DNA from: Nilaparvata lugens | Lineage: Eukaryota; Arthropoda; Insecta; Hemiptera; Delphacidae | Direction of reading: 5' to 3' | Length of the DNA stretch: 64,000 nt | Assembly: GCF_014356525.2 (NCBI RefSeq) | Contig: NC_052504.1 | Span: 102,224,387-102,288,386, forward strand | Shown: piece after piece, positions 1,691 to 41,420 of the stretch | Layout: each line of letters opens with the position of its first letter | Numbering within the stretch: the first letter of the stretch is position 1 | Made by a program: the position numbers and the translations under genes | The notes under the pieces: model-generated | The model's input: the letters and a program-made list of their open reading frames with translations, nothing else | Databases searched by the model: none | Told to the model about the DNA's origin: nothing

Positions 1691-1800
1691 ACTAGCCGTC
1701 AGGCTCGCTTCGCTCGCCATATCCGTCCATCACGACCCCCGACTGAATCGTCCAAAAATGAGATCAGCAGGCTCGCTTCGCTCGCCTGCATTTTTCATTT
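1691..1800 (+). repeat. Half copy of a CTCGCTTCGCTCGCC foldback element
   Basis: It begins ACTAGCCGTCAGGCTCGC and ends in GGCTCGCTTCGCTCGCCTGC plus a T-rich tail. This matches the left half of the two complete copies at 17065-17287 and 18298-18511. The mirrored right half is missing, so this copy is truncated. Confidence 0.7.
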
Positions 1801-1829
1801 GAGAATGCTTCATCCCATCAGAAAGTCAA

Positions 1830-2930
1830 AGTACTGAGAAAACGCAGAAAAGCAGAGAAAAACGTTGGAAAAACGCTGATTTTGGGCGTATCTTTAACGG
1901 TATTGCAAATTATTACACTCTAGCTGAGCTTCTGTACTAAATTTGTACATTTTCTGTCCATTATTTGTTCTCGATAAAGCTGAGAAAACGCTGGAAAACG
2001 CTAATTTTGGGCGTATCTTTGACGTTATTGCAAATTCCTTTCAACACAACATTATTACACACTAACAGAGCTTCTGTACTAAATTAGTACATTTCCTGTC
2101 CATCTGTTCTCGATAAATCTAAGAAAACGCTAAAAAAACACAGGAAAAACGCTAATTTTGGGCGTATCTTTGACGTTATTGCAAATTCATTCTAACACAA
2201 CATTATTACACCCTAGCAGAGCTTCTGTACTAAATTTGTACATTTCCTGTCCATTTGTTCTCGATAAATCTGAGAAAACGCTAAAAAACGCTTGAAAAAC
2301 GCTAATTTTGGGCGTATCTTTGACGTTATTGCAAATTCATTTTAACACAACATTATTACACCCTAGCAGAGCTTCTGTACTAAATTTGTACATTTCCTGT
2401 CCATTTGTTCTCGATAAATCTGAGAAAACGCTAAAAAACGCTTGAAAAACGCTAATTTTGGGCGTATCTTTGACGTTATTGCAAATTCATTTTAACACAA
2501 CATTATTACATCCTAGCAGAGCTTCTTTACTAAATTTGTACATTTCCTGTCCATTTTCTCGATAAATCTGAGAAAACGCTAAAAAACGCTTGAAAAACGC
2601 TAATTTTGGGCGTATCTTTGACGTTATTGCAAATTCATTTTAACACAACATTATTACATCCTAGCAGAGCTTCTGTACTAATTTGTACATTTCCTGTCCA
2701 TTGTTCTCGATAAATCTGAGAAAACGCTAAAAAACGCTTGAAAAACGCTAATTTTGGGCGTATCTTTGACGTTATTGCAAATTCATTTTAACACAACATT
2801 ATTACATCCTAGCAGAGCTTCTGTACTAAATTTGTACATTTCCTGTCCATTTGTTCTCGATAAATCTGAGAAAACGCTGGAAAAACGCAGATTTTGGGCG
2901 TATCTTTGGAAATTCTTCCAAATCCGTGCG
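1830..2930. repeat. Tandem array of eight units of about 150 bp
   Basis: The marker GGGCGTATCTTT recurs at 1884, 2009, 2160, 2310, 2460, 2608, 2756 and 2896, so most spacings are 148-151 bases and the outer ones are shorter. Each unit holds a run of AAAACGCT words, GGGCGTATCTTTGACG, a TTAACACAACATTATTACA block and a TTCTGTACTAAATTTGTACA block. The central units are nearly identical and the outer ones diverge, as expected for an array homogenised by unequal exchange. Short frames inside it are chance. Confidence 0.9.
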
Positions 2931-3056
2931 CCTCTAAAGGGCCAACCGAACATACCTACCAAATTTGAACATTCTTGGTGTAGTAGATTTTTAGTTCTGC
3001 GAGTGAGTGAGTCAGTAAATGAGTTATTGCCATTTCGCTTTTATATAATTATATAG
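2931..3056 (+). repeat. Dispersed GCGCCTCTAAAGGGCC / (GTGA)n repeat, copy 1
   Basis: It starts GCGCCTCTAAAGGGCCAAC, runs through a GAGTGAGTGAGTCAGT stretch and ends GCCATTTCGCTTTTATATA. The same order of blocks recurs at about 17608-17775 and, inverted, at about 17828-17985. It directly abuts the end of the 150-bp array. Confidence 0.75.
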
Positions 3057-3177
3057 AAGATGGATATCCTATATTTTGCTAAGACCGCTCTGACCGCTGA
3101 TTGCTTACTGTGTTTACACACACTCAAAGGGGAGGCATTCTGAATGGTGCTAGGAGACGAAAATATTATTTGTGCAA

Positions 3178-3284
3178 CTAGTGCGCAAAGTGACAGTTTG
3201 CTGCACCGAAAGAAACGTTTACGCCCGAGCCGTAGGCGAGGGCGGAATGGTTTCTTGAGTGCAGCAGAGGAACTTTGCGCACGT
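3178..3284. repeat. Short CpG-rich foldback sequence
   Basis: GTGCGCAAAGT and GCTGCAC near the left end are mirrored by GTGCAGC and ACTTTGCGCAC near the right end. The middle contains GCCCGAGCCGTAGGCGAGGGC. The mirrored ends are visible directly; that it is a non-autonomous transposon remnant is inference. Confidence 0.6.
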
Positions 3285-5450
3285 ATTTCACATTAAGTTT
3301 TTCCTACAGTTACCATTGAATATGAAAAGTGGGTAATTATGGGTAAAATTGCCTGAAATGGATCAAATGTTTTCTGTGTAATTTTATTATTGATAAAAAC
3401 CTTAATTTATTGTCAAATTGAATAAATGTTGTCCTTGGTTATAATATCTAATGCTAATAATTAGCGCGTTGTGCTTGGTTGCACCTCTGCTCACTATAGC
3501 AGCCCAGCAGTCACTGTTACCAACTTCATTTTGATTTTGCTGCACTGTTGCTCCATATAACCTACTAAGTATTTTGCGTTGCCATGTTGCAAATCTGGAG
3601 TGCAGAAAAATTTTTCCCGCACTAGAGCGGAAAAGTGATTCTTTGCGTTCTGTAATCAGTGCAGCAATGGCCACTTTTCAACGTAACTGTTGGAAATAGT
3701 ATATTTCGCACCTAGGGCCGAAAATGAGATATTTCCGGCTCGAAATCGGTTTTCAAGTCCGAGGCCGTAGGCCGAGGACTAGAAAGGATTGAGAGCTGGA
3801 AAACATTTTTGCCCGTGGTGCGAACGATATTTTTCGCCACACTACAGGTATTGCTGACAAAATAAATAAAGAATACAAATAAAGAATACTCGTTAAGCTA
3901 TCGTACCTATCTCTTGATTTTAGTGGTAGAAGATTTGCAGTCAGGATTTCAGATTCTTTTAAAATTTCACTTGGAATACCACAGTCATCTTCAAGCATTT
4001 TTGAAAATTCGGAATGCACTAATCAACAATAAATAATTGAATAAAACTGGTTGCGAAGCGAATTAGTTTGATTCGAAGCTGGAACTAAAATCATGGCGAC
4101 TTCCTTATTATGAAAGTGGACACTCGCCCGATCTAGCGGATGACTTATTAATAATAATTAGCGCGTTGTTTCCAGCCATAAGCGGCTGGAAAGAGACAAC
4201 TTTCTGGCCTAGACCGGAAAAGAAACCCTTTTCTGACGTCGTCTGCAAACAAGGTCTTTCAGATCTACGTAGGGACTGGAAAACAGCTGCTTTCTGTGCA
4301 GTGTGGCGAAAAAATATTTGCTTCCTTGCCTGGATGTACGACGATAACGGATCCAACCACTTTTGACTTTGCACTGGAGTGCTGTAACTCTTCAGGAATT
4401 CTCGGATCAATAGCAGCATCACAGAGATTGATAATAACTGAGCCGAACAGCACAGGATGATGACTTTTGAGCAGCGCTTTCGAGCGAAAATGATCTATTA
4501 CGTGCTTTCTGCGAGTTGCACTTGCTCCAGCAGAGACCTGAATAATTAAATCGATCCAACAAGATGGATGAACTGGTGCTTCCAGTTCTCTCGGCTGAAT
4601 TGATTCCCCTGGGAATATCAGGACGAAAAAACTCAAGTCGACTCCGTTATTCGGCAGTTAGTTCGGTTGTTGGGTCAGCTCTGTTCTCTTTCCACCAAAC
4701 AAGCTGTTCTCTGGGAGGAGTGATGAACAGCTGATCATTAATACTTTGGATAGGTCTAATAAGTCACAAGAAAAATCTCGAATGATGATCATTACTTGGA
4801 TACTCTGAATAGGTATAATAAGTCACAAGAAAAATCTTGATTGATTCTTAATGATTGATTGAAGTGCATCATCAAAATAAGGGAGAGGAAAATAAGATAA
4901 CCTTGTGCTATTCCTCTCCCAAATTTAGATAAGGTTACACATAGTCCGAAATCATTTGGCTGTTCATTCCACAAAAATTTCACAAAATCTGAGGGAATAA
5001 TTTGGAATAATGGTAAAAGAATAGAGAATATGTAGTAGGTCACAACAAATACCGAAAATGTTCTGTTCATGAGATGAACGAGGTCATAGCCACCTCTAAA
5101 CTATGGGCGCTATATGATGGTAGATTAAAAAAGTATTAATTATGTGTCTTCAACGTTTTTCATTTCCCGTGGCTTAATCGATTGAGGATAGGAATAATAT
5201 ATTTTATGTGTCATTTGCCTAACATGTTATGAATTTGTTATCGCAGTAAAATTTTCTAGAAACATAATAAATGTCCGTAATCACTTGTAAGTTCATTATT
5301 GGATAGAAGTAGTGTTTTATTTTCGTTGATAATGGTGCCAATAATCCAAGAATTTGAGTAAGTTTGAAAAACATATCATAGGAATTTCCTGTAACCTATT
5401 CTGTAACGGAAAGTCTATGTGGATATTTGTCAAGGATAGTATACGAGTAT
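3285..5450. other. AT-rich non-coding DNA with small CpG-rich islands
   Basis: No supportable gene. A second foldback-like patch lies at about 3695-3840, with ATATTTCGCAC mirrored by GTGCGAACGATAT. AATTAGCGCGTTGT occurs at about 3459 and 4158, probably remnants of one repeat family. AATAAGTCACAAGAAAAATC is duplicated near 4756 and 4809. Confidence 0.5.
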
Positions 5451-5579
5451 AGCTATTATTATATCATTTATATACTATTCTTGGATAATAGGTACAGTAG
5501 CTACTGTCGATTATAATATATATAATCGCTATTATATAGCTAATATTAATCGCTATATTATAGCTATTATAATATTATT

Positions 5580-6446
5580 GACCGATTGAGGTCTAAGACT
5601 CAAGTCGACGGTTTGGCATTTCTCTTAAAATGTTTTAATGTTTAAATGTTATATGTTTTTATGTTTCAATTTCAATTTCAACTTCATTTATTGGAAAAAA
5701 AAAGATACATTGTAGTGAATGTAGTTAATCAGTGTGGATGCGACAGGCACACTGCCCAAAACCGCACTCCACACAAAATAATAAAGAATAATAAGAAAAC
5801 AAAAACAACTTATACAGAAATTAAACAAACTTCAGAATTACATGCTAAATCTTAAAATAAAATACTAATTATTTATATCATTAAATGCTATTCGTATTGT
5901 ACAATATAATAATTTTAATTAAAATAAGAAAATAAGTTTATTGAAATAAGAATAGAGAGAATAAGTTCAATATAAATGAAAAAAAAATCGACCATTTAAA
6001 CTAAACAAAATTAAAAAGAAAAAAAATAAAACAGAGAAGAAGTAAGGTAAAGACATATATTTATATATAGATAGCAGAAGAAGAGAGGAGAGAGAGTGCT
6101 TGAAGTTAAACATTGACAAAAGAACTAATATTCAAGTATTATAGAGCATGATTTAATAAAGGCATTCAAAGACGGATTGAAGAGATCAATATCACGAGAT
6201 ACTGTGTTGAAGAGTCTCATGGATCGATTGATGGGTGAGTTTACGGCGCATTTACGGCGAAACGCGGTAATAGATTTTCATGAAATTTTGACAGGTATGT
6301 TCCTTTTCAAATTGCGCGTCGACGTATATACAAGGTTTTTGAAAATTTTTCATTTCAAGGATAATATAAAAGGAAAAAGGAGCCTCCTTCATACGCCAAT
6401 ATTACCGTAAAAATCAGACTATAGAATTATTCATCATAAATCAGCT
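5580..6446 (+). mobile_element. Repeat copy interrupted by a nested insertion
   Basis: Segments 5580-5654 and about 6240-6446 match, inverted, the continuous stretch 19291-19600. In that copy the two segments touch. The roughly 590 bases between them (about 5655-6240) therefore look like an insertion. The insert opens with CAATTTCAATTTCAACTTCATTTA and a poly-A stretch and contains CAGGCACACTGCCCAAAAC, a motif that recurs near 10900 and 12800 and resembles a retroelement 3' tail. Exact borders and target-site duplication are not resolved. Confidence 0.55.
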
Positions 6447-6454
6447 GTCTAGTG

Positions 6455-6605
6455 GACTATAATACTACCCGTTCAAAAACATCGAACATCTTGAAAATGT
6501 ATCTTTCCATCAACGTTAGTAGACAGTTGACTATAATACTACCCGTTCAAAAATATCGAACATCTTGAAAATTGTATCTTTCCATCAACGTTGTAGACAG
6601 TTGCA
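6455..6605. repeat. Two-copy tandem repeat of about 74 bp
   Basis: The unit begins GACTATAATACTACCCGTTC and ends in CAACGTTAGTAGACAGTT. It occurs at 6455 and again at 6529 with few differences. Confidence 0.8.
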
Positions 6606-7021
6606 GCCAGACCTGATAACAGCGCTCACACTCACATTCCGGGACGACACGTCACGGTACGATATAGGACAGAAAGCTCTATGTTTATTTAGGATTTTTT
6701 CTAGACATTTTAAATTTATAAATTATTCATTCATTTTTGAGAAAACATAACAACAGGTCAATGTAACTCACTGAGCGCGAGGTCTACTGTTCACAGAACT
6801 ACTAGTTATATCATTTATATACTATTCTTGGATAATAGGTACAGTTAGCTACTGCCGGTGTGATATATTTCATACAGATTGAAGCTAATATCACAGATCC
6901 AAGCCTGTGCTTGTCTTCTGTGCTAATATTAAAGAACTTCTGTGCTTACAATCATTGCAAAGAGTGATCTTCCCACACAATCATTTGATTAGTCCACATC
7001 AACGCTGATAATATGAACTGA

Positions 7022-7092
7022 GACTCCGCTTTCCTCCGCTTTCCGCCGCTTTCCGCCGGTTTTCTCCGCTTTCCTCCGCTTTTTTCCGCTGA
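7022..7092. repeat. CCGCTTTCCT short tandem repeat
   Basis: About seven imperfect copies of a 10-base CTCCGCTTTC-type unit. It is simple sequence with no coding potential. Confidence 0.8.
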
Positions 7093-7521
7093 AAACCTCT
7101 GAATAACTTCAGCTACTTATCTGAGGTAATTTTTCTGTATATTTTTGATAAGACAAGATAAACTCTCACGTTTACAAGGAGCTCAAGAGCCAGACTGTAG
7201 AAGAATCACAAAGTTCGTAACAGAGTTGATGTTGTAACCTTTGAACTCTCTTTCAACTTGAGAATATTTTCTGATAGAAGTTTTGATAATGATCTCGAAG
7301 GAGTTGTTTAGTTATTGAAATGATGCTACAATTTGAGAGGTCTTCCTGGAGCAGTAATCACTTCCGTGGAAGTTTTGGTCATAGCTTTGGAAGTAGTAAG
7401 CATTAACTCATCACTCGTAACTTGCAATGCTTCATCACAAGTGCACTCTCTTCACTCAGCTCTACTATATACTCAGCGTTTAGTCTTCAGATAAGGAGGA
7501 ATGTGTCTCAACAATCCTTGA

Positions 7522-7689
7522 TTGAGAGCAGGGAATTATTCAAAACAAAAAGGCTACCAAATTTCTCTCCCAGAAACTCTAAAAGATCTCATATGTATTT
7601 TAATTGAGAGCAGGGAATTATTCAAAGCAAAAAGGTTACCAAATATTTAGAGTTTCTCCCAGAAACTCTAAAAGATCTCATATGTATTT
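7522..7689. repeat. Two-copy tandem repeat of about 82 bp
   Basis: TTGAGAGCAGGGAATTATTC starts both copies, at 7522 and 7604. Both end in AAAAGATCTCATATGTATTT. Confidence 0.8.
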
Positions 7690-7774
7690 CATGAGGATTC
7701 ATCAACTCAATTTTCCTAGAAATGATGGATCCTTGTGTAGCTACTCGTCGTATATTTGATCAGAGAATCAATTA

Positions 7775-8300
7775 TTGAAAAAATCTGGTGTGGTGCACTC
7801 TCACAACTTTCCTTGCCGTTATAAAAATTGATCCCCTGACGCTAGTGTTCACGCGCATCTCAAGTCTACTATTATTTGAAGATCTGAGCCAGCTGGTGAC
7901 AGGACAATACGCTGGAGACACACGAAGTCTGCTACTCTTCATAGTGAATGATTTAATAGAATCAACAGTTGCCAACAGTTTGCATTGAAATAATAACATT
8001 TTCTCGAATTTCGAGCTTATTTTAAATTTTAGGTGAAAATGTTAATGAACATTAATTGTAGAGATTTTCATGCTCAATCTTTTCCACTTGAAATTTTTGT
8101 TTAAATTGTATCTGGAGCCTGATAATTGGGGAACTAAAATCAAACTTTTGTATAGATGGGGCAGAGCTTCTGAGATTTTTACAGATATGGGACTTGTGGC
8201 AGTTGACAGAGCTTATCAATAACTATTCTAGGTATGAATTTGATCAAAATCATTGGAGCCGTTTTCGAGAAAATCGAGAAAAACCCGATTTTCATACTCT
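7775..8300 (+). repeat. Truncated copy of the CTTTCCTTGCC-ended element
   Basis: It aligns by eye over about 500 bases with 15155-15680: AAAATCTGGTGTGG, ACTTTCCTTGCCGTTAT, AGTTGCCAACAGTT, TTTTCTCGAATTTCGAGC and GACTTGTGGCAGTT in the same order. The right third of the element (15680-16022) is absent here. Small frames in it are chance. Confidence 0.7.
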
Positions 8301-8880
8301 ATTCATATACACCAATATTGAACGATCATCTTAGATGTGACTGGTTACTCTAAATTATATCACTTAGCTCGCAAATTATTATTGTATCATTACTATATCG
8401 CCAAGACTGATTTTCCTACAGGAGCAAACTAGATTTGTAGGGAAATAGTGATCCCTTTTTTCTACTAGTCTCATAATCTAATCATCCATTTCTATCCAAC
8501 TATGAATTAATCCTACGCTAGGAAAACTATAACACTTCAGTTTATCCATCATGACCCAGCTCTCAGGTCATGAGAGCAGTAAACAGTTACACTGTATAGT
8601 CTGCACACTATCACAAATTGATTTTTCACTAGTTTCAAATGTTTCCTCCCCTTCAGCATCCTGGTTAGATCTGAATAGTTGGATTTGATACTTGTAGTCA
8701 TTCAATTAGCTCAGGGTTAAAATGATGAAGTCTAATCTCACTGGACACAAATGGAATGCTTGAAATTCTATGCAAATCTCTTAACTGATGTACCCATCAG
8801 CGTTTACCATTTTCCTTGAAACATTCATTTCGAAATCTCTGTATCATATTGATGCTACTTTCAAGATGCGTACAGATATA
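8301..8880. other. AT-rich non-coding DNA
   Basis: No gene or clear repeat is seen. Confidence 0.4.
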
Positions 8881-9530
8881 CAATCAATCAATCAATCAAA
8901 TTTCATTTATTCAAGTAGTTGCATATAAAAGACAAGCTTCACAACATTGAATCGTCACAATCAATAAAAACACAGAAAAATCAATAGTGGAAAGAGGAGA
9001 CGTCAAAGAAAAACACTGTCTTAAGGAACACCCCCTGGAAGAAATCGATTAATTTCAGTGATTTAAAGGAAATTTTTATTCTGTAATAATTCTATGACAT
9101 GTAATTTCCTTCCTTCAAGACATACACACATACATCCACTGTGTATGGCGCTCTTTCTAACAGAACATTCTTATCCTTCCGGTCATCTTTGAAAAGTTGG
9201 AAAAATCTTTAAAATTATGGGGGAGTCTATTTATAATTTTTATTGCGCAATAGTGTGGGCCTTTCTCCAGAAGGGTTAGTCTATGTGCCGGGTAACCGAG
9301 GATCGAGCCACCACTCCTCGTATTGTAAGAATGATCAAGTGAAACGGATGAGAATGCCCTCCAATTTTCACTAACGTATGTGATGATCTCCAGAAAGTAC
9401 ATGGCTGGCAAGTTAATACTCTCTCTCACAAAATAAGGCCTACAGGATGTTCGGGAACTGAGGTGAAGATTATTCTCAGAGCTCTTTTCTGCCTCCTGAA
9501 AATTACCCAAGGTGTGTGTCATAGCCACCC
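8881..9530 (-). mobile_element. 3' end of a LINE-type non-LTR retrotransposon
   Basis: The minus-strand frame 9528-9157 reads like the region after the reverse transcriptase domain of jockey-like LINEs. It has a RPYFVRESINLPAMYFLE segment, then HSYNTRSGG, then KIINRLPHNFKDF, an order I know from these elements. On the minus strand it is followed by about 270 bases of untranslated sequence ending in a (TTGA)n tail at 8881-8900, a usual LINE 3' end. Only the extreme C-terminus is present, so this is a 5'-truncated dead copy. Clade assignment is uncertain. Confidence 0.65.
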
Positions 9531-9731
9531 CAGAATATCAAACTGTAACGAATGACAGACATGAGATAGCCATGATAGATCGCAAGCAGGGAATTATACC
9601 CTACTGCTCCCCTCACACACCTCAGCGAGAACAGAATAGCAGATATCCTATGCAAGAGACGCTGCACCTGATCAACCTCGTCACTTTTGACTGATCGTAT
9701 CCTAATAGGTCTACGTTAGGTATATTGTTGT

Positions 9732-9988
9732 TTAAAGTTCGATACGCGCCTCCAACACGCTCTGCGCACGCTCCTCACTCGCCCCGCACTCGCTCCGCAA
9801 TCGCCCCACACTAGCTCCGCAATCGCCCCACACTAGCTCCGCAATCGCTCCGCAATCGCTCCGATCATTAACGTTACGGGAGATGTTAGCTCTTCTCGCA
9901 TTCCACTCTTGCTCCCCGGTCGATCATCAATTGATCTGTTCGAGTAACGTTTGATTGTGGAGCAGAGCGAAAGTCTGTACGCACCTTC
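9732..9988 (-). mobile_element. TTAA-type MITE, copy 1 (inverted)
   Basis: TTAA at 9732 is followed by a diverged TACGCGCC end, then short tandem CACTAGCTCCGCAATCGCC units. The body contains CGTTACGGGAG and GATCATCAATTGATC, and the end is CTGTACGCACCTT. The same blocks occur in opposite order at 10943-11119 and 20491-20779. Confidence 0.6.
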
Positions 9989-10560
9989 ACAAGCACATCT
10001 CCAGATATAAATCCCATGCACTCAAAATTGTTTTCAGATCGGGTTGTATAGATTGTTCTTTTTTTTCAAAGATGGGATGAATTGGCAATCAAGCAATCAA
10101 TATTTGCTCGTCTATATGTACGGTCAAGATGCTTTCTTTTGATTTTGATGTGTTCCTCCCACTTCTATCCAAGATCTGATATCATTTCAAGATATTTAGT
10201 CTTATTTTAACAGATAATTCAGATTCAATTGTTCCTGTTGATGAAATTTTATCTCTTCAAAGCAATATAGTCCTACTCCCAGTCAACAAATAATATCCAT
10301 TAAATAATATTATAACTGAGGTGAATCTCGTTGATAGAATGTGTCAAATTTACGTGCAATGGTGTTATCCTTGACCAGTCGTTCAGTCTCAATAGAATGT
10401 TAATTTTAAACAGTTAGTATTTGAATAGAATAGAGAAGAATGACTTTTTTATTTATGTTGACGTGGCGAAGTTTGGACAATAATGTCCACTCTACCACTC
10501 AACCATGATTATAGTACTACTGATATACCGGCATCAGATATCCTTAAGCCTGGTTTTCAT
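9989..10560. other. AT-rich non-coding DNA
   Basis: No supportable gene or repeat. Confidence 0.4.
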
Positions 10561-10746
10561 CAGTAGAGTTAGTGGTAGAGCTCTTTGGACAAGTACTAAC
10601 TATTTGTGAACTGAACTCTCCCAATGAAAACGTTCATGGTAGAGTACTAGTTTTTAGTAGAGTAGAGTGGAATAGTACTCTACCACTTGCCTTCCCCCAC
10701 CACCGCTTCTCACTCCACTCTACCACTACTATGCTGATGAAAACAG

Positions 10747-10790
10747 TCTCGAGCTAGTAGAGTAGAGTAGAGTAGAGTAGAGTAGAGTTC
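10747..10790. repeat. (AGAGT)n microsatellite
   Basis: Six or so consecutive AGAGT / GTAGA units. The preceding 180 bases contain scattered copies of GTAGAGTA, so the array lies in a wider AGAGT-rich patch. Confidence 0.8.
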
Positions 10791-10826
10791 CGTATTGACA
10801 TTTCAAGGTTAGTTCTGTTTACTAGA

Positions 10827-10930
10827 CAACACACTTTATTTATTTATTTCTTTGAAAATCACAAATCATAATTATACTATATAATATGATTGGGAGAAGA
10901 CAACAGGCATAGCCCAAAACTGTCTTCTCC
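10827..10930. repeat. Retroelement-tail-like repeat with ACAACAGGCATAGCCC motif
   Basis: A (TTTA)n stretch is followed by ACAACAGGCATAGCCCAAAACTG. Variants occur at 12740-12840 and, inverted, near 13893-13915, and a weaker one at about 5745. This looks like the 3' tail of one retroelement family. That is inference from recurrence. Confidence 0.45.
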
Positions 10931-10942
10931 AAATAACAAAAA

Positions 10943-11119
10943 TTTCGAACGTCACTCGAGCAGATCGATTGATGATCGATCAGGGAGCAAGAGTGGAACG
11001 CGAGAAGAGCTAACATCTCCCGTAACGTTCATGATCGGAGCGATCGCGGAGCGTGCGTGGAGCGATTGCGGAGCAAGTGCGAAGCGTGTTGGAGGCGCGT
11101 ATATCTGTACGCACCTTAA
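10943..11119 (+). mobile_element. TTAA-type MITE, copy 2 (left end lost)
   Basis: It runs from CGAACGTCACTCGAGCAG through GATTGATGATCGATC and CCCGTAACGTTCATGATCGG to CTGTACGCACCTTAA at 11119. The left inverted end seen in the 20491 copy is missing. The GGAGCG / GCGGAGC-rich middle is shared by all three copies. Confidence 0.6.
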
Positions 11120-11283
11120 AAGTAACATCAATATGATAACAAATATAAGTTTCAAAAAATAATGAGGTTATAATTTCACTTTTCACATCAAAAATTGAAA
11201 ACCCACTATTACCTTCACCTACCTACTATTCTCAATTGTAGAGAAAACAGTTACTCGACCAAGTAAGTAGAGTAGAGTTAGAG

Positions 11284-12252
11284 TGTGAAGTAACAACTCT
11301 ACTAGTGAAAACCATGCTTTATAGAAGGAAGTAGCAAGGCAGAGAATCGACTACGCTGTCTCCTTTCTCCTTCCAATATTATAATAACGTGGACCTTTAC
11401 TATAGTGAGTACATAAACCATACAACAGGTCGACAGGGGGAATCAGAGACCACCAACTCTACTAGTGAAAACCATGCTCTATAGAAGGCAGTAGCAAGGC
11501 AGAGAATCGACTACGCTGTCTCCTATCTCCTTCAACTATTATCATAACGTGGACCTTTACTATTATAGTAAGTACATAAACCATACAACAGGTCGACAGG
11601 GGGAATCAGAGACCACCAACTCTACTAGTGAAAACCATGCTCTATAGAAGGCAGTAGCAAGGCAGAGAATCGACAACGCTGTTCTCCTATCTCCTTCAAC
11701 TATCATTATAACGTGGACCTTTAATATAGTAAGTACATAATCCATACAACAGGTCGACAGGGGGAATCAGAGACCACCAACTCTACTAGTGAAAACCATG
11801 CTCAAAAGAAGGCAGTAGCAAGGCAGAGAATCGACTACGCTGCTCTCCTATCTCCTTCCACTATTATTATAACGTTGACCTTTACTATAGTAAGTACATA
11901 AACCATACAACAGGTCGACAGGGGGAATCAGAGACCACCAACTCTACTAGTGAAAACCATGCTTTATAGAAGGCAGTAGCAAGGCAGAGAATCGACTACG
12001 CTGTTCTCCTATCTTCTTCCACTATCATTATAACGTGGACCTTTACTATAGTAAGTACATAAGCCATACAACAGGTCGACAGGGGGAATCAGAGACCACC
12101 AACTCTACTAGTGAAAACCATGCTTCATAGAAGGCAGTAGCAAGGCAGAGAATCGACTACGCTGTTCTCCTATCTTCTTCCACTATCATTATAACGTGGA
12201 CCTTTACTATAGTAAGTACATAAACCATACAACAGGTCGACAGGGGGAATCA
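11284..12252. repeat. Tandem array of six units of about 161 bp
   Basis: CTCTACTAGTGAAAACCATG recurs at 11297, 11457, 11620, 11781, 11942 and 12103. Each unit also has AGGCAGAGAATCGACTACGC, TAACGTGGACCTTTACTATA and CAACAGGTCGACAGGGGGAA. The units are nearly identical, so the array is young or well homogenised. It ends abruptly after CAGGGGGAATCA at about 12252. No protein is encoded. Confidence 0.92.
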
Positions 12253-13885
12253 CGCAAGGAATAGAATTAGGTTGATCGAGCTGTGAAACAGTGAAAAAGA
12301 TAAGAAAAGAATGTACAGTGGAAATCACTTCAAACTGACAGTATCCGTCATAAGTAGAATGAATGCTTCCCTTTCAACCAGTGCTGACACATTGCCTTGA
12401 CCACGCCCTGATCTTCACGTCACTCAAAGTGGCGTGCTTCATTCTCAACTTCGTGAGTCATTATGTCAACAATCGACTTGGACTTGATTTCAGTGCTTTG
12501 CGAAGTAACAAGCGTTGTATCATTTGTAACATAAGTTAATAGAAATTAATTCACTTCGACTTGATTTCAACAAAAAGAGAGCTTTACAAAATTCTAGTAA
12601 GCCCATGATATGGATGAATGATTGAATTAATTATTGATGTAAAAAGAAATTTTGATTCACTTTGACTTAATTAAAACAAAAACAGAGCTTTACAAAGTTT
12701 GAGTAAGCCAATTTTTGGATAAATGATTGAATTATCTCTACATTGAATATTATTTATTTATTTATTTATTTATTCATATGCAAATACAATTCAGGTTAAA
12801 ACAACAGGCATTTGCCCAAAACTGCTTCAAACCTTAATTTGGAATACACAGTCTAAAGGTTATGCTACTTACGTAACTTAAATGATAATTCTAACACAAT
12901 TTTGAGTCCAAAAAATGTATCTACTAACATTTTGAATATATCAGATTGATCAATTTCCAAATACGAATCCAAGCAAAAATCTTCCTTCACAATTGCAAAA
13001 AATATTGAAAATTCCCCTCAAATCCACAAACTCATGTAAACATCAGACTAGATCTATCTGTTTTCATGCAGATTATAAAATATTGCACCAAGTATGATCT
13101 ATTTTGTCAAAGAGTGTGTGGGAAGAGAAATTTCACAAAATATCCACCCACCACAACCTATTCCACCACCTTCATCCCTTACCACACATAGCCTTGTCAT
13201 CTGAGTGAATTCCCACAGTCTGATGATGACCAACAACAGGTCGAAACGATCGTCACTATACAAAAGTAAGTCCATTTTCACTTCAAAAGTTTTTCAAAAT
13301 TCAAGTTTATTATTATTATTATCGAGGTCATTCACCTATAATGTCGATGATGAGTCGACCTTTTTGTCACCTTTTTGTGAGCTGGTATAGCATCTGTTTA
13401 GAGGTTGTGTCGGGAAATTCAACAAAGACAAATTCTCCATCAGTTTTCTCTCCGAGTGAAAAACTTTTCAACCTTGTACAAGGAAACGTTGAAATCGAAA
13501 CTTCCAGAATCGATTAATAGCTTTCTAGATATGCCTAATTAGTGCATGCCTGAATGAATTTCTGTGTATGGTGAAGACATTTTTATAGTTCAATATGTTG
13601 GCTGATAAGTTGATCTAATGTGATACTAATGTGAGTTAGTAACAGCTGTGCCTAGTTGAAAGTTGTGTGTTTGGCTTCAAATTTTTCTGAAATAACTTAA
13701 TTTATTCAAAGTGCGATGATATTAAGTGCAAAATGTTAAGTGCAATTTGGTATTTTAATCATTCTAAATTCAAAATTTCTAGCTAATATATATTCTTGGA
13801 CAGAGCTTTGAACTTTAAATTTCCTCAGTAAGAACATAACTTATTTTTTCGGACATTTCATTATTATCAAAATTTGGAAACAGAA
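12253..13885. other. AT-rich non-coding DNA
   Basis: No supportable gene. A (TTTA)n stretch with ACAACAGGCATTTGCCC lies at about 12745-12840 (retroelement-tail-like). An approximate 120-base duplication around ATTAATTCACTTCGACTTGATT and TTGATTCACTTTGACTTAATT lies at 12540-12730. Confidence 0.45.
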
Positions 13886-13889
13886 TAGT

Positions 13890-14500
13890 TCTGGGCTATG
13901 CCTGTTGTTCTATCCCGATCATATTCATATAAATAAACGAATAAAACGAATAAACGATCATATCTGTCTGTCTGTATGTAGTTTTCTGCTCGTAAGCAGG
14001 TCCTTCTATATATTATGGCAGCAGCCCTCCACTCTCTTCTATTCTCTGCCAGTCGCTTCGTTGCATAGTAGCTCATCCCCTCCTTGATGTCGTCCAACAT
14101 TTTCTATCTTCTTCTCCCTCTTCCTCTTCTTCCCTGAATGGTCTCCTCCATGGCATCCACCAACAAGCATTGCCGTCTCATCTAATGTCCCAGCCATCTC
14201 CTCTTTCTTCCCTTTATCACATCCAGCAGACTCCCTCTTTCCCCAACCCTCCTCAACACCACCTCGTTTGTAACTTTATCCCTCCAACTGATCCCCTCCA
14301 TCCTTCTCCATATCCACATTTCCAATGCCTCAAGCCTCCTTTCTCAGCGTCCAAGTTTCTGCACCATACAGTGCCACACTCCAAACATAGCACTTTATTA
14401 GCCTTTTCCAGTCTTGTCCAGTTGGCTACAAAGAATTCTTTTTTCTTATTGAATGCTGTTTTTGCCATAGCAATCCTTACTTTGATTTCTTTGTTGCATT
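13890..14500 (-). mobile_element. Degraded LINE reverse-transcriptase C-terminus
   Basis: Read on the minus strand in shifting frames, 14490-14040 gives AMAKTAFNKKKE, a LYG-like segment, RRMEGISW, RRVGEERSLLDVIKGRK, RRWLGH and GRRRGREKK. This block order is familiar from the end of RTE/CR1-type LINE reverse transcriptases. Frameshifts and stops show it is dead. The segment is followed at 13960-13890 by an AATAAACG-rich tail and the inverted ACAACAGGCATAGCCC motif, probably its 3' end. Confidence 0.65.
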
Positions 14501-15145
14501 CATATCCTCTTCCATTATTTATTCGATCATATCAACGAATAAATAAATAACAGAACAATTAATTACAGTAAAGCAAACCTTCCCAATGGATTAACAAAGT
14601 ATGAACTGGAGAATAAAATAACGTTCATAGAGTTGATGTAATTTGATCTCAATAATATGAAAAATCAATAGGAATTGCTTGTTATCAGAATGATTTTCTT
14701 GGGATACAGTTTTGTCTAACTACTTGGGAGATGAATTACATCAGAGAATGCACTTCACTGTAGAGGGGAACAGGCGATTGTACATTGATTTTTTTTTAAG
14801 GATCTATTATAGTACAGATTTCACAAGTTTTCAGGGAACCAACTCATAATAATATTACAATCTCTCATCATGTTGATCGTCCAATTTCTCACAAACTTGC
14901 TACTTCCAATAGTTCTATTTATAGAGATTTTTCGAGCCTTTCATATTGATTTTTATGTTGTTATTTTCAACACGAATGAGCGGAGAGTGGGAGACAGCTG
15001 ATACCGGTATGTCTGTTGTAGTATTGACTGTTCATTCTTGTCAGAAATGATCATTTATTTTTTATGGAAATATATTTTTCATTGATGAAAAAAGAATGTC
15101 AACGATTAATATGGAGTATTTTGTTAATTTTTCATATTTCTACAT
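14501..15145. other. AT-rich non-coding DNA
   Basis: No gene or repeat resolved. Confidence 0.4.
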
Positions 15146-15154
15146 TTTCAAAAA

Positions 15155-15813
15155 TCTGGTGTGGCGCACACACAACTTTCCTTGCCGTTATGGAAATTGA
15201 TCACCTGACACTAGTGTTCCCGTGCATCTCAAGTCTACTATTCAAAGATTTGAGGCAGCTGGTGACAGGGCAATAGCACTGGAGATACTTGGGGTCTGCT
15301 ATCTCTTCATAGTGAATCATTCGATAACAGTTGCCAACAGTTGCAATTATTGGATAATCACATTTTCTCGAATTTCGAGCTTATTTTCAATTTTAGGTGA
15401 AAATGTTACTGAACATTAATTGTAGAGATTCTCATGCTCAATCTTTTTCATTCGAATTTATTTGTTTAAATTGTATCTGAAGCCTGATAATTGAGAATCC
15501 AATATCAAACTTTCATAGATGGGGAGGAACTCCTGAAATTTTACAGATATGTGACTTGTGGCAGTTATAGCTCTGTATAGCTATATACAGATATAGCTCA
15601 TCAATGACTATTCTAGGTATAAAAGCGATCAAAATCGTCGAATCCATTTTCGAGAAAATCGCGAAAAACCTTGTTTTTGACAACATTTCCACCATTTTGG
15701 CCGCCATCTTGAATCGCATTTGATCGAAATTGTTCATGTCGGATCCTTATAGTGTAAGGACTATACGTTCCAAATTTCAAGTCATTACGTTAACTGGGAG
15801 ATGAGATATCGTG

Positions 15814-15892
<79 letters not shown>

Positions 15893-16022
15893 GACCAATA
15901 CCCAAAAAACACTTTTTCGGACTCAGGGGACCTCGAAACGTATAAAAATTTTGAAATTGGGGTACCTTAATTTTTTCTGGAAAGCAATACTTTCCTTACC
16001 TATGGTAATAGGGCAAGGAAAG
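15155..16022 (+). mobile_element. Near-complete non-autonomous element with CTTTCCTTGCC inverted ends
   Basis: CTTTCCTTGCC at about 15176 is mirrored by GGCAAGGAAAG at about 16012-16022, giving an element of about 850 bases. It encodes nothing recognisable. The (CA)n run lies inside it. The first 500 bases match 7775-8300. The inverted ends suggest a DNA transposon derivative; the class is not determined. Confidence 0.55.
15812..15892. repeat. (CA)n microsatellite
   Basis: About 40 consecutive ACAC units with a single CC interruption near 15850, inside the element at 15155-16022. Confidence 0.95.
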
Positions 16023-16319
16023 TAAAAAACGATCTCGTGAAGTTAGAAAACGATAGCACTTTTGTCGGATAGCTGCTTTGTCGGATGATATACAAGGATA
16101 GCAACACTAATGTAAATCAGATACTGCCATTATAACGAGACCTTACTGTATTGAACCATATTTGAATGGACTAGGCTGCTCTTAAATCTAGTAGATTAAG
16201 TTCCTTTATTATATTTTTTAAATGGAAATAGCTATCCTCCAAGATAATAATTGTTGTAGTAGAGGACTGGGAAACTCGAAAAGGCAATGTAGTTCTCCAA
16301 CGCTAAACTGGATAGATCG

Positions 16320-16541
16320 TGCCCCACTCTATAAATACTCTTGTCTACTATATTCTTTTGAATAGATGTTGTATTTCCGGATTAATAGCATGGGATACGA
16401 AAATATGTGATTTATAGTAGACTCTTACGATGTAGAATAGTGCCCCACTCTATAAATACTATCTTGTCTACTATATTATTTTGAATAGATATTATATTTC
16501 CGGATTAATAGCCTGGGATACGAAAATATGTGATTTTTAGG
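16320..16541. repeat. Two-copy tandem repeat of 121 bp
   Basis: TGCCCCACTCTATAAATACT starts at 16320 and again at 16441. Both copies run through GGATTAATAGC and GGGATACGAAAATATGTGAT. Confidence 0.85.
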
Positions 16542-17064
16542 CTAATCATTCACGTCGATGGTATAACTGAAGCAGACAATCCAGCTGCCGAGCTCTAAAA
16601 TCAAAACTGAATGTATTTCCGCGATGAAAATATTTGACCCTCTCGCCATGAATAATTGATTGGTCCATAAGCTAGCTCTGACAGGGATGTCACAAAAAAT
16701 TATTCTAGAGACTTTCATGGCGTCTCTTGGCTTCGCAAAAAAAAGATTAAGTTACAAAGGAGCAGCTCGTCCATCCATAATAAGAGCGGCTTGAGGGAAG
16801 AAGAAGAGCGTATTTTGATAGCAGAATAATAAAGGGCTTTCATCATGTTTCGTTCGAAAAAATATCCTCCATATCACAGATAACTCAGCTGTTTCTTCAC
16901 CCAACAGTAGAATATTATAAATATAACTGAGTGGAACTCCATTATCTGAATTATTCCAAGAGTCATATCAAAGGAGCTCAAAATGCTAATCTATCAGCTG
17001 TTCTATTGAGAGCATTGGAAAGACAAGAGAATGTTTCTTCAACCAACAGTGAAATCTATATAAT

Positions 17065-17288
17065 ACTAGCCGTCAGGCTCGCTTTGCTCGCCATATCCGT
17101 CTAGCCAGGGGGCTCCGCACCCTGGACCCCCGACTGGATCGTCCAGAATGAGAACAGCAGGCTCGCTTCGCTCGCCTGCATTTTTCGTTTGAGCATTTTT
17201 ATCATATGTTAGGACAATCCAGTCGGGGGTCCAGACTAAACATCTGGCTAAACCGATATGGCGAGCGAAGCGAGCCTGACGGCTAGTA
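17065..17288 (+). mobile_element. Foldback element, complete copy A
   Basis: ACTAGCCGTCAGGCTCGCTT at the left is mirrored by GCGAGCCTGACGGCTAGT at the right. Inner mirrored blocks include GACCCCCGACTGGATCGTCC and its complement. It is capable of forming a hairpin and has no coding capacity. Confidence 0.75.
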
Positions 17289-18297
17289 ATATAATATTCC
17301 CAGGATTGAAGTAGCAGTGCCCAATCAATTGTTCCGCGATAAATGCATTTAAATCTTCAACTTGATGCCAACCTAACAAAGTCAACTCAACTTAATGCCA
17401 ACCTGACAAATTATTATTTAGTTGCCAGTTAACAACTGTTTCGAAGAGGTACTCTATCTAGATTATAGTTCTATAGTAACATATTATATGGAAATTTCAA
17501 TTTTAATCAAGAGATTGGGAGAAGAAGAATATACATGCTAAAAGACGAACTTTAAACCCTTAAAACCAACCCTTAGAGTTAAAATATTGCCAAAAGATTT
17601 CTTAGTGCGCCTCTAAAGGGCCAACTGAACATACCTACCAAATTGAACGTTTTTGGTCCGGCAGATTTTTAGTTATGCGAGTGAGTGAGTGAGTGAGTGA
17701 GTGAGTGAGTGAGTGAGTGAGTGAGTCAGTCAGTCAGTGAGTGAGTGCCATTTCGCTTTTATATATTATATAGAATCTATATATATAATCTATATAATAT
17801 ATAAAAGCGAAATGGCAGAATTATATATATAGATTCTATATAATATAAAAGCGAAATGGCACTTACTCACTGACTGACTGACTGACTCACTCACTCACTC
17901 ACTCACTCACTCGCAGAACTGAAATTTACCGGACCAAAAACGTTCAAATTTTGTAGGTATGTTCAGTTGCCCTTTAGAGGCGCACTAAGAAATCTTTTGG
18001 CAATATTTTAACTCCAAGGGTGGTTTTTAAGGGTTTAAAGTTCGTCTTTTAGCATGAATATTCTTCTTATTCTCTTAATTATAATTGAAAAAAGGCCATA
18101 CCATATGTTAATATAGAACTAGAGAGAGTACCTCTTCGAAACAGTTGTTAACTGGTAACTACATTAATAATTCTGTCAGGTTGGCATTAAGTTAAGTTGA
18201 CTTTGGCACCAAGTTGAAGATTGAAAAGCATTTATCGCGGAAAAATTGATCGGGCTCTGCTACTTCAATCAGACCTATTCCTGGGAATATTATATTA

Positions 18298-18511
18298 CTA
18301 TCCGTCAGGCTCGCTTCGCTTGCCATATCCGTTTAGCCAGACGTTTAGTCTAGACCCCCGACTGGATCGTCCTAACATATGATAAAAATGCATAAATGAA
18401 AAATGCAGGCGAACGAAGCGAGCCTGCTGATCTCATTCTTGGACGATCCAGTCGGGGTCTAGATCCCCTGGCTAGACGGATATGGCGAGCGAAGCGAGCC
18501 TGACGGCTAGT
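18298..18511 (-). mobile_element. Foldback element, complete copy B
   Basis: Same structure as 17065-17288 in the opposite orientation, with independent substitutions (ACTATCCGTCAGG at one end). It forms the outer right arm of the long palindrome. Confidence 0.75.
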
Positions 18512-19290
18512 ATTATAATATAACTGAGTGAAACTAGATTTTCTGAATTATTCCAAGAAAGTGCAAAATTCTAGAGGGTCCCAATGGCTGGAGAACTCGC
18601 TCAAAATGCCACTGACTTATCAGCTGTTCTATTGAGAGCAGTGGAAAGAAAATAGAAGTATAGTCTATACTATTAGTTCTGTGAACAGTAGACCTCACGC
18701 AGTATTCTCATCCACAAGTACCAGATATAAACTGTTTTAAATGTTAACAAACTCAGTTCACGTTTGAATTTGTATTCCATATGATATAATTCATCCAGTT
18801 CCGTGATGATCTTTCTATCTGATGAAAATTGATTTTATAGAATCGAAAATATTATAATTTCTCCAGCATTATTTAGTTCATTGTTTATTTTTATTCACCT
18901 ATTGAATTAGTTTCTTCGAATGTGAGAATATTGATACTGATAGGCACGCATAATATACCATGACTGCAAAACAAAATATTGAAACCAAAGACCTTAGAGC
19001 TGCGATTAGACCAAATTTGATGTTCATAATCTTAAAAATGTTAATAACTCAATCCTTTTACATTATACATTGGATTGAACATAACTTATCATACACATGA
19101 TGGACATTCATGTGTTTGTCAACTTCCATTCAATCTAGTAGAATCGATAAGCAATAAGTTATAACCATTTTGTTGATAACTTTGATGTAAACCCAGCTTA
19201 AAGATGCTCTTTAATGTCTTTGATTGAAACTATTGACCTTATACAAATACAGTAATAGACGCTTCTCCTCACATCTGTGTAATCACTTGT
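18512..19290. other. AT-rich non-coding DNA with repeat flanks
   Basis: 18529-18655 directly repeats 16921-17040, the other side of the palindrome. TTCTGTGAACAGTAGACCTC near 18675 is the inverse of a segment near 6775-6795. No gene is seen. Confidence 0.5.
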
Positions 19291-19600
19291 CAGCTGATTT
19301 ATGATGAATAATTCTATAGTGTGATTTTTACTCTAATATTGGCGTATGAAGGAGGCTCCTTTCTCCTTTTATATTATCCTTGAAATGCAAAATTTCTAAA
19401 AACCTTGTATATACGTCGACGCGCAATTAAAAAGGAACATACCTGTCAATTTTCATGAAAGTCTATTACCACGTTTCGCCGTAAATGCGCAACATATAAA
19501 CATTTAAACATTCAAACATTTAAACCCTAAAATGTTTGAAGAGAAATGAGAAATGCCAAACCGTCGACCTGAATCTAGACCTCACTTCGCTCGGTCAACT
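19291..19600 (-). repeat. Uninterrupted copy of the 5580-6446 repeat
   Basis: CAGCTGATTTATGATGAATA, ATGAAGGAGGCTCCTTT, TATATACGTCGACGCGCAAT and AAATGCCAAACCGTCGAC follow one another without a break. The inverted copy at 5580-6446 has about 590 extra bases between the last two groups. Confidence 0.7.
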
Positions 19601-20490
19601 AGCAGGTAACCAATGCTCAGCAAGGGTCTGATTAAAAACTTGATAAACTGAAAACTTGACCATCTGGAATCTTGAAGGAATTAAAATAGGATATAACCAT
19701 CCTCGATAAATTGAGAATCGATATGCAAAATTGCAAGTTAATCACTGTATAGTTCAGACGTGATTATAAACTCAAATGAACATTCCTGAATTATTTTATC
19801 CCGAATGTGTATAAACCTAAGTTATTCTTTCTTTAATTATATTAGAGATAGGATAAGTTGAGACTTGAAGAATATATCGGTGAGGCCAAATTGTGTGTAA
19901 TCTCAATATCTTCATGCAACTCTATATTGAAAGATGTTTTCAATGTTTTATTGACAACATAGTCGATACATAGTGTCAATTCGATTGTATCTAGTCATAT
20001 GGGCTTGCAAAATTTAAATTTCGCACAATTTTGCAACAGGGATATTTCTTCAAGTCTCAACTCATTCCATTCAAACTATGGTTAGAGGTCGAGTTGACTG
20101 ACCATAATAATAGACCATTATTTCATCATCTTTTTACAAGGATTGGGATCTATTGGCCTGTACCGGCATCCATTTCTTTCTTGGTCTTCCTATGCCTCGC
20201 TTCCTTCGGGTTTGTATTTCCATGCTAATATTGGGATATTGGGTAAATAATTCCATTATTTCATGCATAATGCAATTTTAATGTTATCCTGAGTGTGATA
20301 TCCTTAAGAATGACCAAGGAGTGAGTAAAAAATTTCGTTGGCAGACAATCTCGATATGTGTAATGGTTAGAGGAATATGTGTTTAAAATTTGAAGTTGAT
20401 TCATGGAAGCATTGGAAAGTTATCGTCAAACATACAAAAGCCTACACACTTGCAAACCCACACACTCACATACTGACAACGACTCAAGTC
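19601..20490. other. AT-rich non-coding DNA
   Basis: No supportable gene. The short frames present do not resemble any protein I know. Confidence 0.4.
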
Positions 20491-20779
20491 TTAAGGTGCG
20501 TACAGACTTTCGCTCTGCTCCGCAACCGAACGTCACTCCAGCAGAGCGATTGATGATCGACCGGCGAGCAAGAGTGGTTCGACCGGGGAACGCGAGTAGA
20601 TCTAATATATTTGTAACATCTAATATATTGTATACATCTCCGTAACGTTCATGATGGTGCGTGGCGGAGCGACTGTGGTTCGATGGTGGTACAAGAGCGG
20701 TACGAGGCGGTACGAGGGCGTACGAGGGCGGAGCGTGCTCGGTGCTGGTTGGAAGCGCGAATATGTGTACGCAGCTTAA
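20491..20779 (+). mobile_element. TTAA-type MITE, copy 3 (both ends present)
   Basis: TTAAGGTGCGTACAGA at 20491 and TGTACGCAGCTTAA ending at 20779 are inverted ends flanked by TTAA on both sides, the target duplication typical of the piggyBac superfamily. The middle is rich in GGAGCG and GTACGAGGGCG and has no coding capacity. This is the best-preserved of three copies and lies only 82 bases from the gap. Confidence 0.65.
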
Positions 20780-20861
20780 GGTAGGAAGTCGCCAAGCTTG
20801 TTCGAAAATCTTTGAGCATAGCGAGGAATGTGACATTGGATTCGAGAATGTCAGCTAACAG

Positions 20862-20961
20862 NNNNNNNNNNNNNNNNNNNNNNNNNNNNNNNNNNNNNNN
20901 NNNNNNNNNNNNNNNNNNNNNNNNNNNNNNNNNNNNNNNNNNNNNNNNNNNNNNNNNNNNN
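20862..20961. other. 100-N gap joining insect-like and bacterial DNA
   Basis: Exactly 100 N. To the left is AT-rich repeat DNA. To the right the first base is already inside a bacterial ABC-ATPase gene. The fixed length is the usual placeholder for an unknown distance, so the join has no sequence support. Confidence 0.98.
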
Positions 20962-21365
20962 TACGCCGCAGGAGATGTACGGTTCACCCACTACGCTGTT
21001 CACCGCTGAGTTCATGGGCAGCAACAACCGCTTGCCGGGCAAGATCGTGGCGCTGGAAGGCGATCGGGCGCGCATCGAAGGCAAGGACTGGGCGCTGTGG
21101 GGCAAAGCGGGCGAAGGCGTGCAGGTTGGCCAGGGGGCTCGGCGGTGATCCGCGTGGAGCGCGTGCGGTTGGGCGAAGATCCGCAGGGCAACCAGCTTGA
21201 GCTGCCGCTGTTGACCAGCATGTATCTCGGCGATCGCTGGGAGTACCTGTTTCGCACCGTGGCCGAGGATTTCGTGGTGCGCGCCTATGGCACGAAGCGC
21301 GCAGTCAGGCGCTTTGCCGGCTCTCCCTGCCGGCCGAGCATCTGTGGATATTCCCGAAAGCCTAG
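20962..21365 (+). CDS. ABC transporter ATP-binding protein, C-terminal (TOBE) part only
   Basis: The frame opens inside the gene with a TPQEMYGSPTTLFTAEFMG segment. This is the region just after the nucleotide-binding domain of PotA/FbpC-type importer ATPases, where the helical end leads into the TOBE domain. A NRLPGKIVALEGDRARIEG beta-rich segment, VIRVERVRL and PLLTSMYLGDRWEYLFR follow, and the end is LWIFPKA before a TAG at 21363. Walker A/B lie in the gap. At least two single-base breaks are present (near 21146 and 21290). The substrate cannot be read from this part; polyamine or another small cation is likely by family. It converges on cntB, so it is not in that operon. Confidence 0.75.
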
Positions 21366-38491: not shown

Positions 38492-38517
38492 CATGACCCC
38501 ACGGCTTCAGACACAAC

Positions 38518-39052
38518 ATGACAAACTCACCTTACAAGAGCAGATGCTCAAAGCGGGCTTGTTACCAGCAAGAAAATGGCAAATGCCAAAGAACGGCTAA
38601 AAATCACGCGTTCAGGCCCGTGAGGCCAGAGAGGCGGTGGAAGAGAACAAAAAAGCACAGCTTGAGCGCGATAAGCAGCTGAGCGAACAGCAAAAAAGCA
38701 GGCCGCGCTGTCCAAGAATACAGGCGCAGGTGAAGCAGCTGATCGAGATGACCCGCATCGTCCTGGCAAAGGCGATATCGGTTTCAACTTCACCGACGGT
38801 AACCTGATCAAGAAAATCCTGGTGGATAAGGCGACGCAGACCCAGCTGATCCATGGCCGTCTCGCCATTGCCCGCTTGGTGGTCGAGAACCGCGAAGAGT
38901 GTGAATATGCGATTATCCCTGCGAGCGTCGCCGATAAAATCGCGCAGCGCGATGCGGCAGCATTGTGCTGCACAGCGCGCTGAGTCAGGAAGAGCAGGAT
39001 GAAGACGATCCGTACGCCGACTTCAAAGTGCCTGACGATTTGATGTTGGTAA
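38518..39052 (+). CDS. yaiL: YaiL family protein (DUF2058), nucleoprotein/polynucleotide enzyme-like
   Basis: About 180 residues, mostly charged. KLTLQEQMLKAGL opens the protein, then a Lys/Arg/Glu-rich helical region (QAREAREAVEENKKAQLERD, KQLSEQQK), NFTDGNLIKKILVDKATQTQ, LIHGRLAIARLVVENREECE, and the end HSALSQEEQDEDDPYADFKV followed by PDDLMW. These match E. coli YaiL, whose function is unknown to me. The ATG at 38518 matches the usual start but needs one restored base; an in-frame ATG at 38492 would add a few residues. At least five frame breaks, the last an extra T just before the stop. It is convergent with the rluA-like gene, six bases apart. Confidence 0.88.
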
Positions 39053-39058
39053 CCGCGT

Positions 39059-39753
39059 TCAGAACGGCGCGGCGTGACGAGCGGCGAGATCCGCTCTCCA
39101 CTGACGGGGTGCACAAGTCCAGCTCGCTGGCGTGCAGCACACAGCCGCGGCGTCTGGTTCGGTACCCGGCAGCAGACGCCCGCCATACAGATCGCAACCT
39201 AAAATAGGGGCCCAACTGCCGACTGTGAATACGCAGCTGGTGGGTGCGCCCAGTCTCTGGGGTGAGCTGCACCCGCGTCAGCGGCAGCGAGATCCCGCCC
39301 TCCGCTTCACGATAAAAACGCTCGGACACCCGATAGCGGGAGCGGGCGGGTTTGCCGTGGAGGGCGCAAATTGACATCAGCGGGAACAGCGCCGGATCTT
39401 TGGCGATTGCCGCGTCTATGACCCCTTCGTTATCCGCCAGATGGCCGCAGAGCAGCGCGTTGTACACTTTGCTGACGGGGCGCTCGCTGAACTGCCGGCA
39501 GAGCGCGGCGTTGGCGGCCTTGTTGCGGGCCACCACCATCAACCCGGACGTGCCGAAATCCAGGCGGTGCACCAGGCGCAGCCGGGGAAGATCTGTACCA
39601 GCCGATGGGTACCGAATCGAGATTCTGCGGATTCTTGCCCGACAGGCTGAGCAGCCCGGCCGGCTATTGATCAGCGCAGATGATCGTCCGATAGAGGATC
39701 TCTATTTGGTCATGGCATGGCGGGGCGATAAAGGTATCGGTGATCGTAGACAT
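39059..39753 (-). CDS. rluA: RluA-family rRNA/tRNA pseudouridine synthase
   Basis: About 230 residues. The catalytic HRLD motif is present in MHRLDFGTSGLMVVARNK, with Asp as the nucleophile. CRQFSERPVSKVYNALLCGH, LTRVQLTPETGRTHQLRIHS (the RTHQLR motif) and VLHASELDL follow, and a FVHPVSGERIS-type end with APF can be read across frames. The size and compact N-terminus without an S4 domain fit RluA or a close relative more than RluC/RluD. The start ATG at 39753 gives MSTITDTFIAP. At least six frame breaks. Assignment to RluA itself rather than another short paralogue is tentative. Confidence 0.75.
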
Positions 39754-39891
39754 CGGGCGGCCGGCTGGAGGGGGGGCGGATGATAGCGAATTCGCGTCGA
39801 TGAGCGAATGCGGTTTTCGCTACACTGCGCCTCATGCCCGTTGCACCCGATACGGCAAAGCATCGTGGGCCACGGTTAAGTCCCCGGCGCT

Positions 39892-41419: not shown

Positions 41420-41420
41420 A

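Follow-up and report, generated by a model that had tools for sequence, protein, structure and literature searches.

Serratia DNA at the ends of Nilaparvata lugens scaffolds, almost certainly an assembly artefact

The bacterial end of scaffold C1 in the Nilaparvata lugens assembly is almost certainly an assembly artefact, in which Serratia contigs were appended to a host scaffold. The window analyzed in this study is a stretch of 64,000 nucleotides (positions 102224387-102288386) that forms the final 64 kb of this 102,288,386-base scaffold, and the end of the window coincides with the end of the scaffold. The initial annotation, made from the letters of the window, had proposed that the scaffold absorbed contigs of an associated bacterium and that no transfer into the insect genome took place. 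This proposal held up on several grounds: the bacterial contigs correspond to unlinked loci in the Serratia genome G015, they lie at the scaffold end, their indels resemble read errors, and seven more scaffold ends carry Serratia DNA.

Layout of the scaffold end and its host side

Repeat-rich host DNA occupies positions 1-20861 of the window and is characterized by an AT-rich composition, tandem arrays, minisatellites and long inverted repeats. It is followed by a 100-N scaffold gap (20862-20961), Serratia contig 1 (20962-44654), a second 100-N gap (44655-44754), Serratia contig 2 (44755-55257), a third 100-N gap (55258-55357) and Serratia contig 3 (55358-64000), which reaches the last base of the scaffold. 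The initial annotation had described a complete switch in composition at the first N run, three gaps of equal round length and no read-through from host to bacterium, and all three descriptions agree with the sequence. GC calculated per 2 kb is 0.34-0.39 in positions 1-20000 versus 0.53-0.66 in positions 20001-64000, the N runs are exactly 100 bases each, and the host and bacterial sides are linked solely by the gap at 20862-20961. The longest words common to both sides of this gap were 13 bases on the same strand and 15 bases on the opposite strand, and 10 base shuffles gave 13-15; sequence sharing across the gap is not above chance. One 100-N gap is also found within the host part of the scaffold, in the 10 kb immediately to the left of the window. 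Thus, a length of 100 Ns is a general mark of contig joins in this assembly and is not specific to the foreign join.

The host assembly totals 1,085,386,871 bases in 6870 contigs with an N50 of 77,631,935, and its 16 large scaffolds (C1-C16) amount to 991 Mb. The entry for N. lugens in a review lists an assembly of 1087 Mb built from PacBio and Illumina reads, with 16 chromosomes and a scaffold N50 of 77.63 Mb (PMC11507613). No match to three units of the TTAGG telomere repeat was found in the window, and pieces of 300-1000 bases from the scaffold ends held 0-2 single units; thus, none of the sampled scaffold ends shows a telomere array. The window also yielded no tRNA under the bacterial code and no match to an Rfam family.

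The left side of the window had been assigned to the planthopper, and this assignment is supported by repeats within 1-20861 that were seen again, at 76-91% identity, in pieces near the ends of five other host scaffolds (C5, C9, C10, C13 and C14). The match in C14 covers window positions 20641-20777 with 76% identity over 163 columns and stops 84 bases before the gap, so host DNA extends nearly to the gap. Both direct and inverted repeats were found in this part, along with two tandem arrays, one of approximately 150-bp units at 1909-2888 and one of approximately 161-bp units at 11294-12252, which are possibly satellite DNA. The host-side ORF at 9157-9537 on the minus strand was without a match in both the homologue search and Pfam.

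Serratia contigs, their source loci and the other scaffold ends

The sequence from 20962 to 64000, which had been attributed to Serratia in the initial annotation, is 97-99% identical to the Serratia genome G015 with the exception of 39810-44654. Judged by the Pfam content of eight ORFs, the right part of the window is bacterial: the matches include aldehyde dehydrogenase (Aldedh), Rieske, LysR HTH, phosphoglycerate kinase (PGK), ABC transporter, sodium:dicarboxylate symporter and small-domain methyltransferase families, with an MFS match below the cut-off. The Aldedh, Rieske, LysR HTH and PGK matches are to broken genes of contig 1. Over epd, pgk and fbaA (names taken from plasmid-collection records), a stretch of 2.8 kb matched all 30 Serratia genomes, 12 of them at 97-99%, and G015 was the best at 99%. 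From this 97-99% cluster, G015 probably belongs to the S. marcescens complex. For comparison, contig 1 matched 87 plasmid records, with identities of 73-81% among the matches listed (the best 20 of the 87), and contig 2 had no match in E. coli genomes.

The three contigs derive from three unlinked places on the 5.35-Mb chromosome of G015, at approximately 4.34-4.36, 2.24-2.25 and 0.60 Mb. Positions 20962-39809 of contig 1 correspond to G015 C1 4,363,061-4,344,053 on the minus strand, and contig 2 (44755-55257) corresponds to G015 C1 2,237,745-2,248,332 on the plus strand at 98% identity. Contig 3 corresponds to G015 C1 604,912-601,355 and 601,013-595,848, both on the minus strand at 97-99%, and 341 bases of G015 are missing between the two aligned parts.

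G015 lacks the final 4.8 kb of contig 1 (39810-44654) at the corresponding place. A chimeric origin of contig 1 at 39810 was considered and rejected, as seven of the 30 Serratia genomes are collinear across this point. In these seven genomes the collinearity spans 38500-44654 at 93-96% identity, and thus contig 1 is a single bacterial contig. The segment 39810-44654 carries araD, ulaD, sugar-kinase and MFS gene names and is a strain-variable locus, without collinear sequence at this place in the closest genome, G015.

The bacterial side had been noted to begin in the middle of a gene, and this is the case: position 20962 lies within a 356-aa ORF of a Serratia relative that has a Pfam ABC transporter ATPase domain (2.2e-39). 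Contig 1 thus starts within an ABC ATPase gene, and it stops within an MFS transporter gene. Both edges of contig 2 also lie within ORFs. The same is true of all six contig edges when the ORFs predicted in G015 or G013 are considered, with two edges less than 20 bases inside the ORF. Since ORFs cover approximately 90% of the reference, these positions indicate only that the edges are arbitrary and do not count as evidence.

The remaining scaffold ends were sampled as the last 1 kb of C2-C16 for the right ends and the first 300 bases of C1-C16 for the left ends. Right-end GC was 0.54-0.63 in C2, C3, C6, C7, C8, C10, C12 and C13, 0.48 in C4 and 0.29-0.42 in the remaining six scaffolds. A search of seven of the eight GC-rich tails against four Serratia genomes (G015, G013, G002 and G012) gave a match for all seven, and the best match was always G015, with 96-99% identity over 951-1000 bases. 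The matched loci in G015 are at 4.616 Mb for C2, 0.764 Mb for C3, 0.427 Mb for C6, 1.673 Mb for C7, 1.030 Mb for C8, 3.912 Mb for C10 and 5.304 Mb for C13. The Serratia match leaves out the last 29, 15 and 49 bases of the C6, C10 and C13 tails, respectively. Since the seven tails are Serratia sequences from seven further places in G015, the contamination spans many scaffolds, and sequence identity assigns the right ends of at least eight of the 16 large scaffolds, C1 included, to Serratia. In addition, the last 1 kb of C12 looks bacterial, with a GC of 0.57 and a metabolite-symporter gene of the MFS (NF007710, a bacterial family) in pieces. At 20 kb inside the right end, samples of 200 bases had a host-like GC of 0.255-0.375 in C2, C3, C7, C8, C10, C12 and C13, and the GC in C6 was 0.43. 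The right end of C5 has a GC of 0.55 in its last 250 bases and 0.35-0.41 in the rest.

None of the left ends of the 16 large scaffolds looked bacterial. For 14 of them this was judged by GC alone, with values of 0.29-0.42. The left end of C12 (1-300) has a GC of 0.647 and is a minisatellite of approximately 47-bp units, and the GC-rich left end of C14 matches a host repeat.

Indels, frameshifts and the competing explanations

Over 38,321 aligned reference bases, the window differs from G015 by 417 mismatches, 367 deletions and 59 insertions. These counts leave out duplicate alignments of contig 3 at overlapping loci and the part of contig 1 from 39810, which has no G015 counterpart. Thus there is one indel per 90 bases in the Serratia contigs (426 in all), and six of seven indels are deletions. 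Single-base losses account for 349 of the 367 deletions. Of these, 261 are located in runs of at least two, which hold 44% of background bases. As a control, a single stretch was aligned between G015 and each of nine other Serratia genomes (4.9-5.8 kb each), which gave 25-200 mismatches in each aligned piece and 0-3 indels in each genome. The window, in 4.2 kb at the same stretch, had 27 mismatches and 25 deletions. The indel pattern is therefore unlike that of living Serratia genomes. The seven tails at the other scaffold ends have the same deletion bias as the window, since each is 6-11 bases shorter than the G015 stretch it matches.

The consequence for coding sequences is severe. Every complete G015 ORF of at least 150 aa that was tested (31 of 31) carries between 3 and 25 frameshifts in the window, and in the control genomes frameshifts were found in five of 43 ORF comparisons. 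For example, pgk is broken, and its longest open piece corresponds to profile positions 135-362 of 379. Indels fall within ORFs approximately in proportion to ORF coverage; in contig 1, 201 of 222 indels are in ORFs and the ORF share is 0.93.

The substitutions behave differently. Among mismatches in ORFs, 246 of 392 are synonymous, with shares of 56%, 63%, 75% and 87% across the four aligned blocks; 25-30% would be expected if the same changes were placed randomly, and the control genomes had 67-96%. The shares for contigs 1 and 2 (0.56 and 0.63) are below that of every control (0.67 and up), so some of the substitutions are errors or unselected changes. Synonymous changes made up 48 of 93 mismatches near indels versus 198 of 299 mismatches more than 10 bases from them, and thus some of the indel-adjacent mismatches are probably errors too. 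These patterns read as a living Serratia source under purifying selection, whose long-read indel errors would have been left unpolished. The damage resembles errors of long reads without polishing and not decay after transfer.

Under lateral transfer, a planthopper subtelomere would have received a large block of Serratia chromosome, whose later decay would account for the broken genes. The block does sit on a host scaffold, and S. marcescens is a known associate of N. lugens in one report (PMC10718449), but its only link to the host is an N run, it comes from three unlinked places in G015, and separate transfers would be needed for the seven other scaffold ends. The frameshifts in all tested ORFs, together with the synonymous share of contigs 1 and 2 somewhat below that of the living controls, could be taken as signs of decay. 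Neutral decay in an insect chromosome is expected to produce mainly substitutions, with no synonymous excess and without indels in such numbers. Here, however, indels are as frequent as substitutions (426 versus 417) and are mostly single-base deletions in short runs, and the ORF substitutions are mostly synonymous. From this ratio and the synonymous excess, host-like evolution after insertion was not found; the test would miss an insertion of very recent date. Lateral transfer is thus considered extremely improbable. It is just as hard to credit that one or more Serratia pieces at the scaffold ends represent a true, recent insertion into subtelomeric host DNA that helped the scaffolder to attract further Serratia contigs.

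A mis-scaffolded symbiont with a degraded genome, whose contigs carry true pseudogenes, would also explain why all 31 tested ORFs, pgk included, are frameshifted. Genome decay would be expected to spare glycolytic genes until late, yet the glycolytic pgk is broken. In addition, the 99% nucleotide identity of the pgk locus to G015, with its 5.35-Mb chromosome, and indels as numerous as substitutions fit poorly with long decay, and the similar net loss in the seven searched tails (6-11 bases per kb) is as an even rate of error would give. This explanation is regarded as very unlikely.

Three marks of assembly contamination were found instead. The foreign DNA is near-identical to a living lineage (97-99% to G015 and, for 39810-44654, 93-96% to seven other Serratia genomes). 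No contiguous sequence crosses the join of host and foreign DNA, which consists of a 100-N gap without shared words above chance. Also, the pieces are unlinked in the donor, relative to G015, and scattered over host scaffolds, from the three places represented in the window and the seven represented in the tails. Under an assembly artefact, Serratia would have been carried by the sequenced planthoppers as a gut or body associate, or would have been a laboratory contaminant, and would have been sequenced with the insect. Its long reads, probably at low depth, would have yielded short, poorly polished contigs with read errors visible as indels. The scaffolder would be the faulty step: in trying to place these contigs in some chromosome group, it may have set them unordered at the right ends and joined them to host scaffolds by the standard 100-N gaps. 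Foreign contigs at one end only would be expected if a scaffolder appends those that it is unable to order. Since S. marcescens is documented as living in N. lugens (PMC10718449), an insect-borne source is plausible, and contamination from reagents or handling is possible. The strain Bup_Serratia of S. marcescens, isolated from N. lugens (PMC10718449), has the genus and host in common with the present contigs and is a plausible source.

Comparable assemblies and database entries

The present case resembles that described for the mite Oppiella nova, in whose assembly Acinetobacter contamination comprised 41 fragments and 2.28 Mb, in that the genome of an associate lies within the public assembly of its host and lateral transfer was suspected first (PMC12507336). 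In N. lugens, the bacterial contigs form the right-hand ends of chromosome-scale scaffolds.

Foreign tails have already become insect genes at NCBI. For example, the C13 tail is 96% identical to Serratia at the DNA level and contains a frameshifted kup potassium transporter gene. The NCBI entry "low affinity potassium transport system protein kup-like, partial [Nilaparvata lugens]" matches an ORF in this tail (24-932 of the last 1 kb) with 100% identity across 84% of the query. The ORF in the C4 tail, which has a GC of 0.48, is the NCBI entry "uncharacterized protein LOC120350982, partial [Nilaparvata lugens]" and had only two other matches. We take these two relatives to be fungal by the look of their sequences, and LOC120350982 and the C4 tail are probably fungal in origin, perhaps from a yeast-like symbiont if the resemblance holds.

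This reading of the C4 tail fits the FCS-GX paper, which names fungi as symbiont contamination in N. lugens GCA_014356525.1 (PMC10898089). The two cases share the host species and probably the assembly, and the C4 tail encodes a protein with fungal-looking relatives. They differ in that the contaminant described here is Serratia, a name absent from the main text of that paper, and its supplementary tables may list it (PMC10898089). No published report of Serratia in the N. lugens assembly was found by title and abstract opening, a search in which subscription journals are mostly uncovered.

The artefact is of an ordinary type and its spread is wide, with pieces of a bacterial genome distributed over the chromosome ends of a pest assembly. 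Three papers (PMC9531499, PMC9670383 and PMC8670961) use the names GCA_014356525 and ASM1435652v1 for N. lugens, and the assembly analyzed here is probably this one (GCA/GCF_014356525), the N. lugens reference of other work. Entries such as the Serratia "kup-like" gene and the probably fungal LOC120350982 can mislead work on a major rice pest through false reports of lateral transfer, false features of chromosome ends and incorrect assignment of transcripts.
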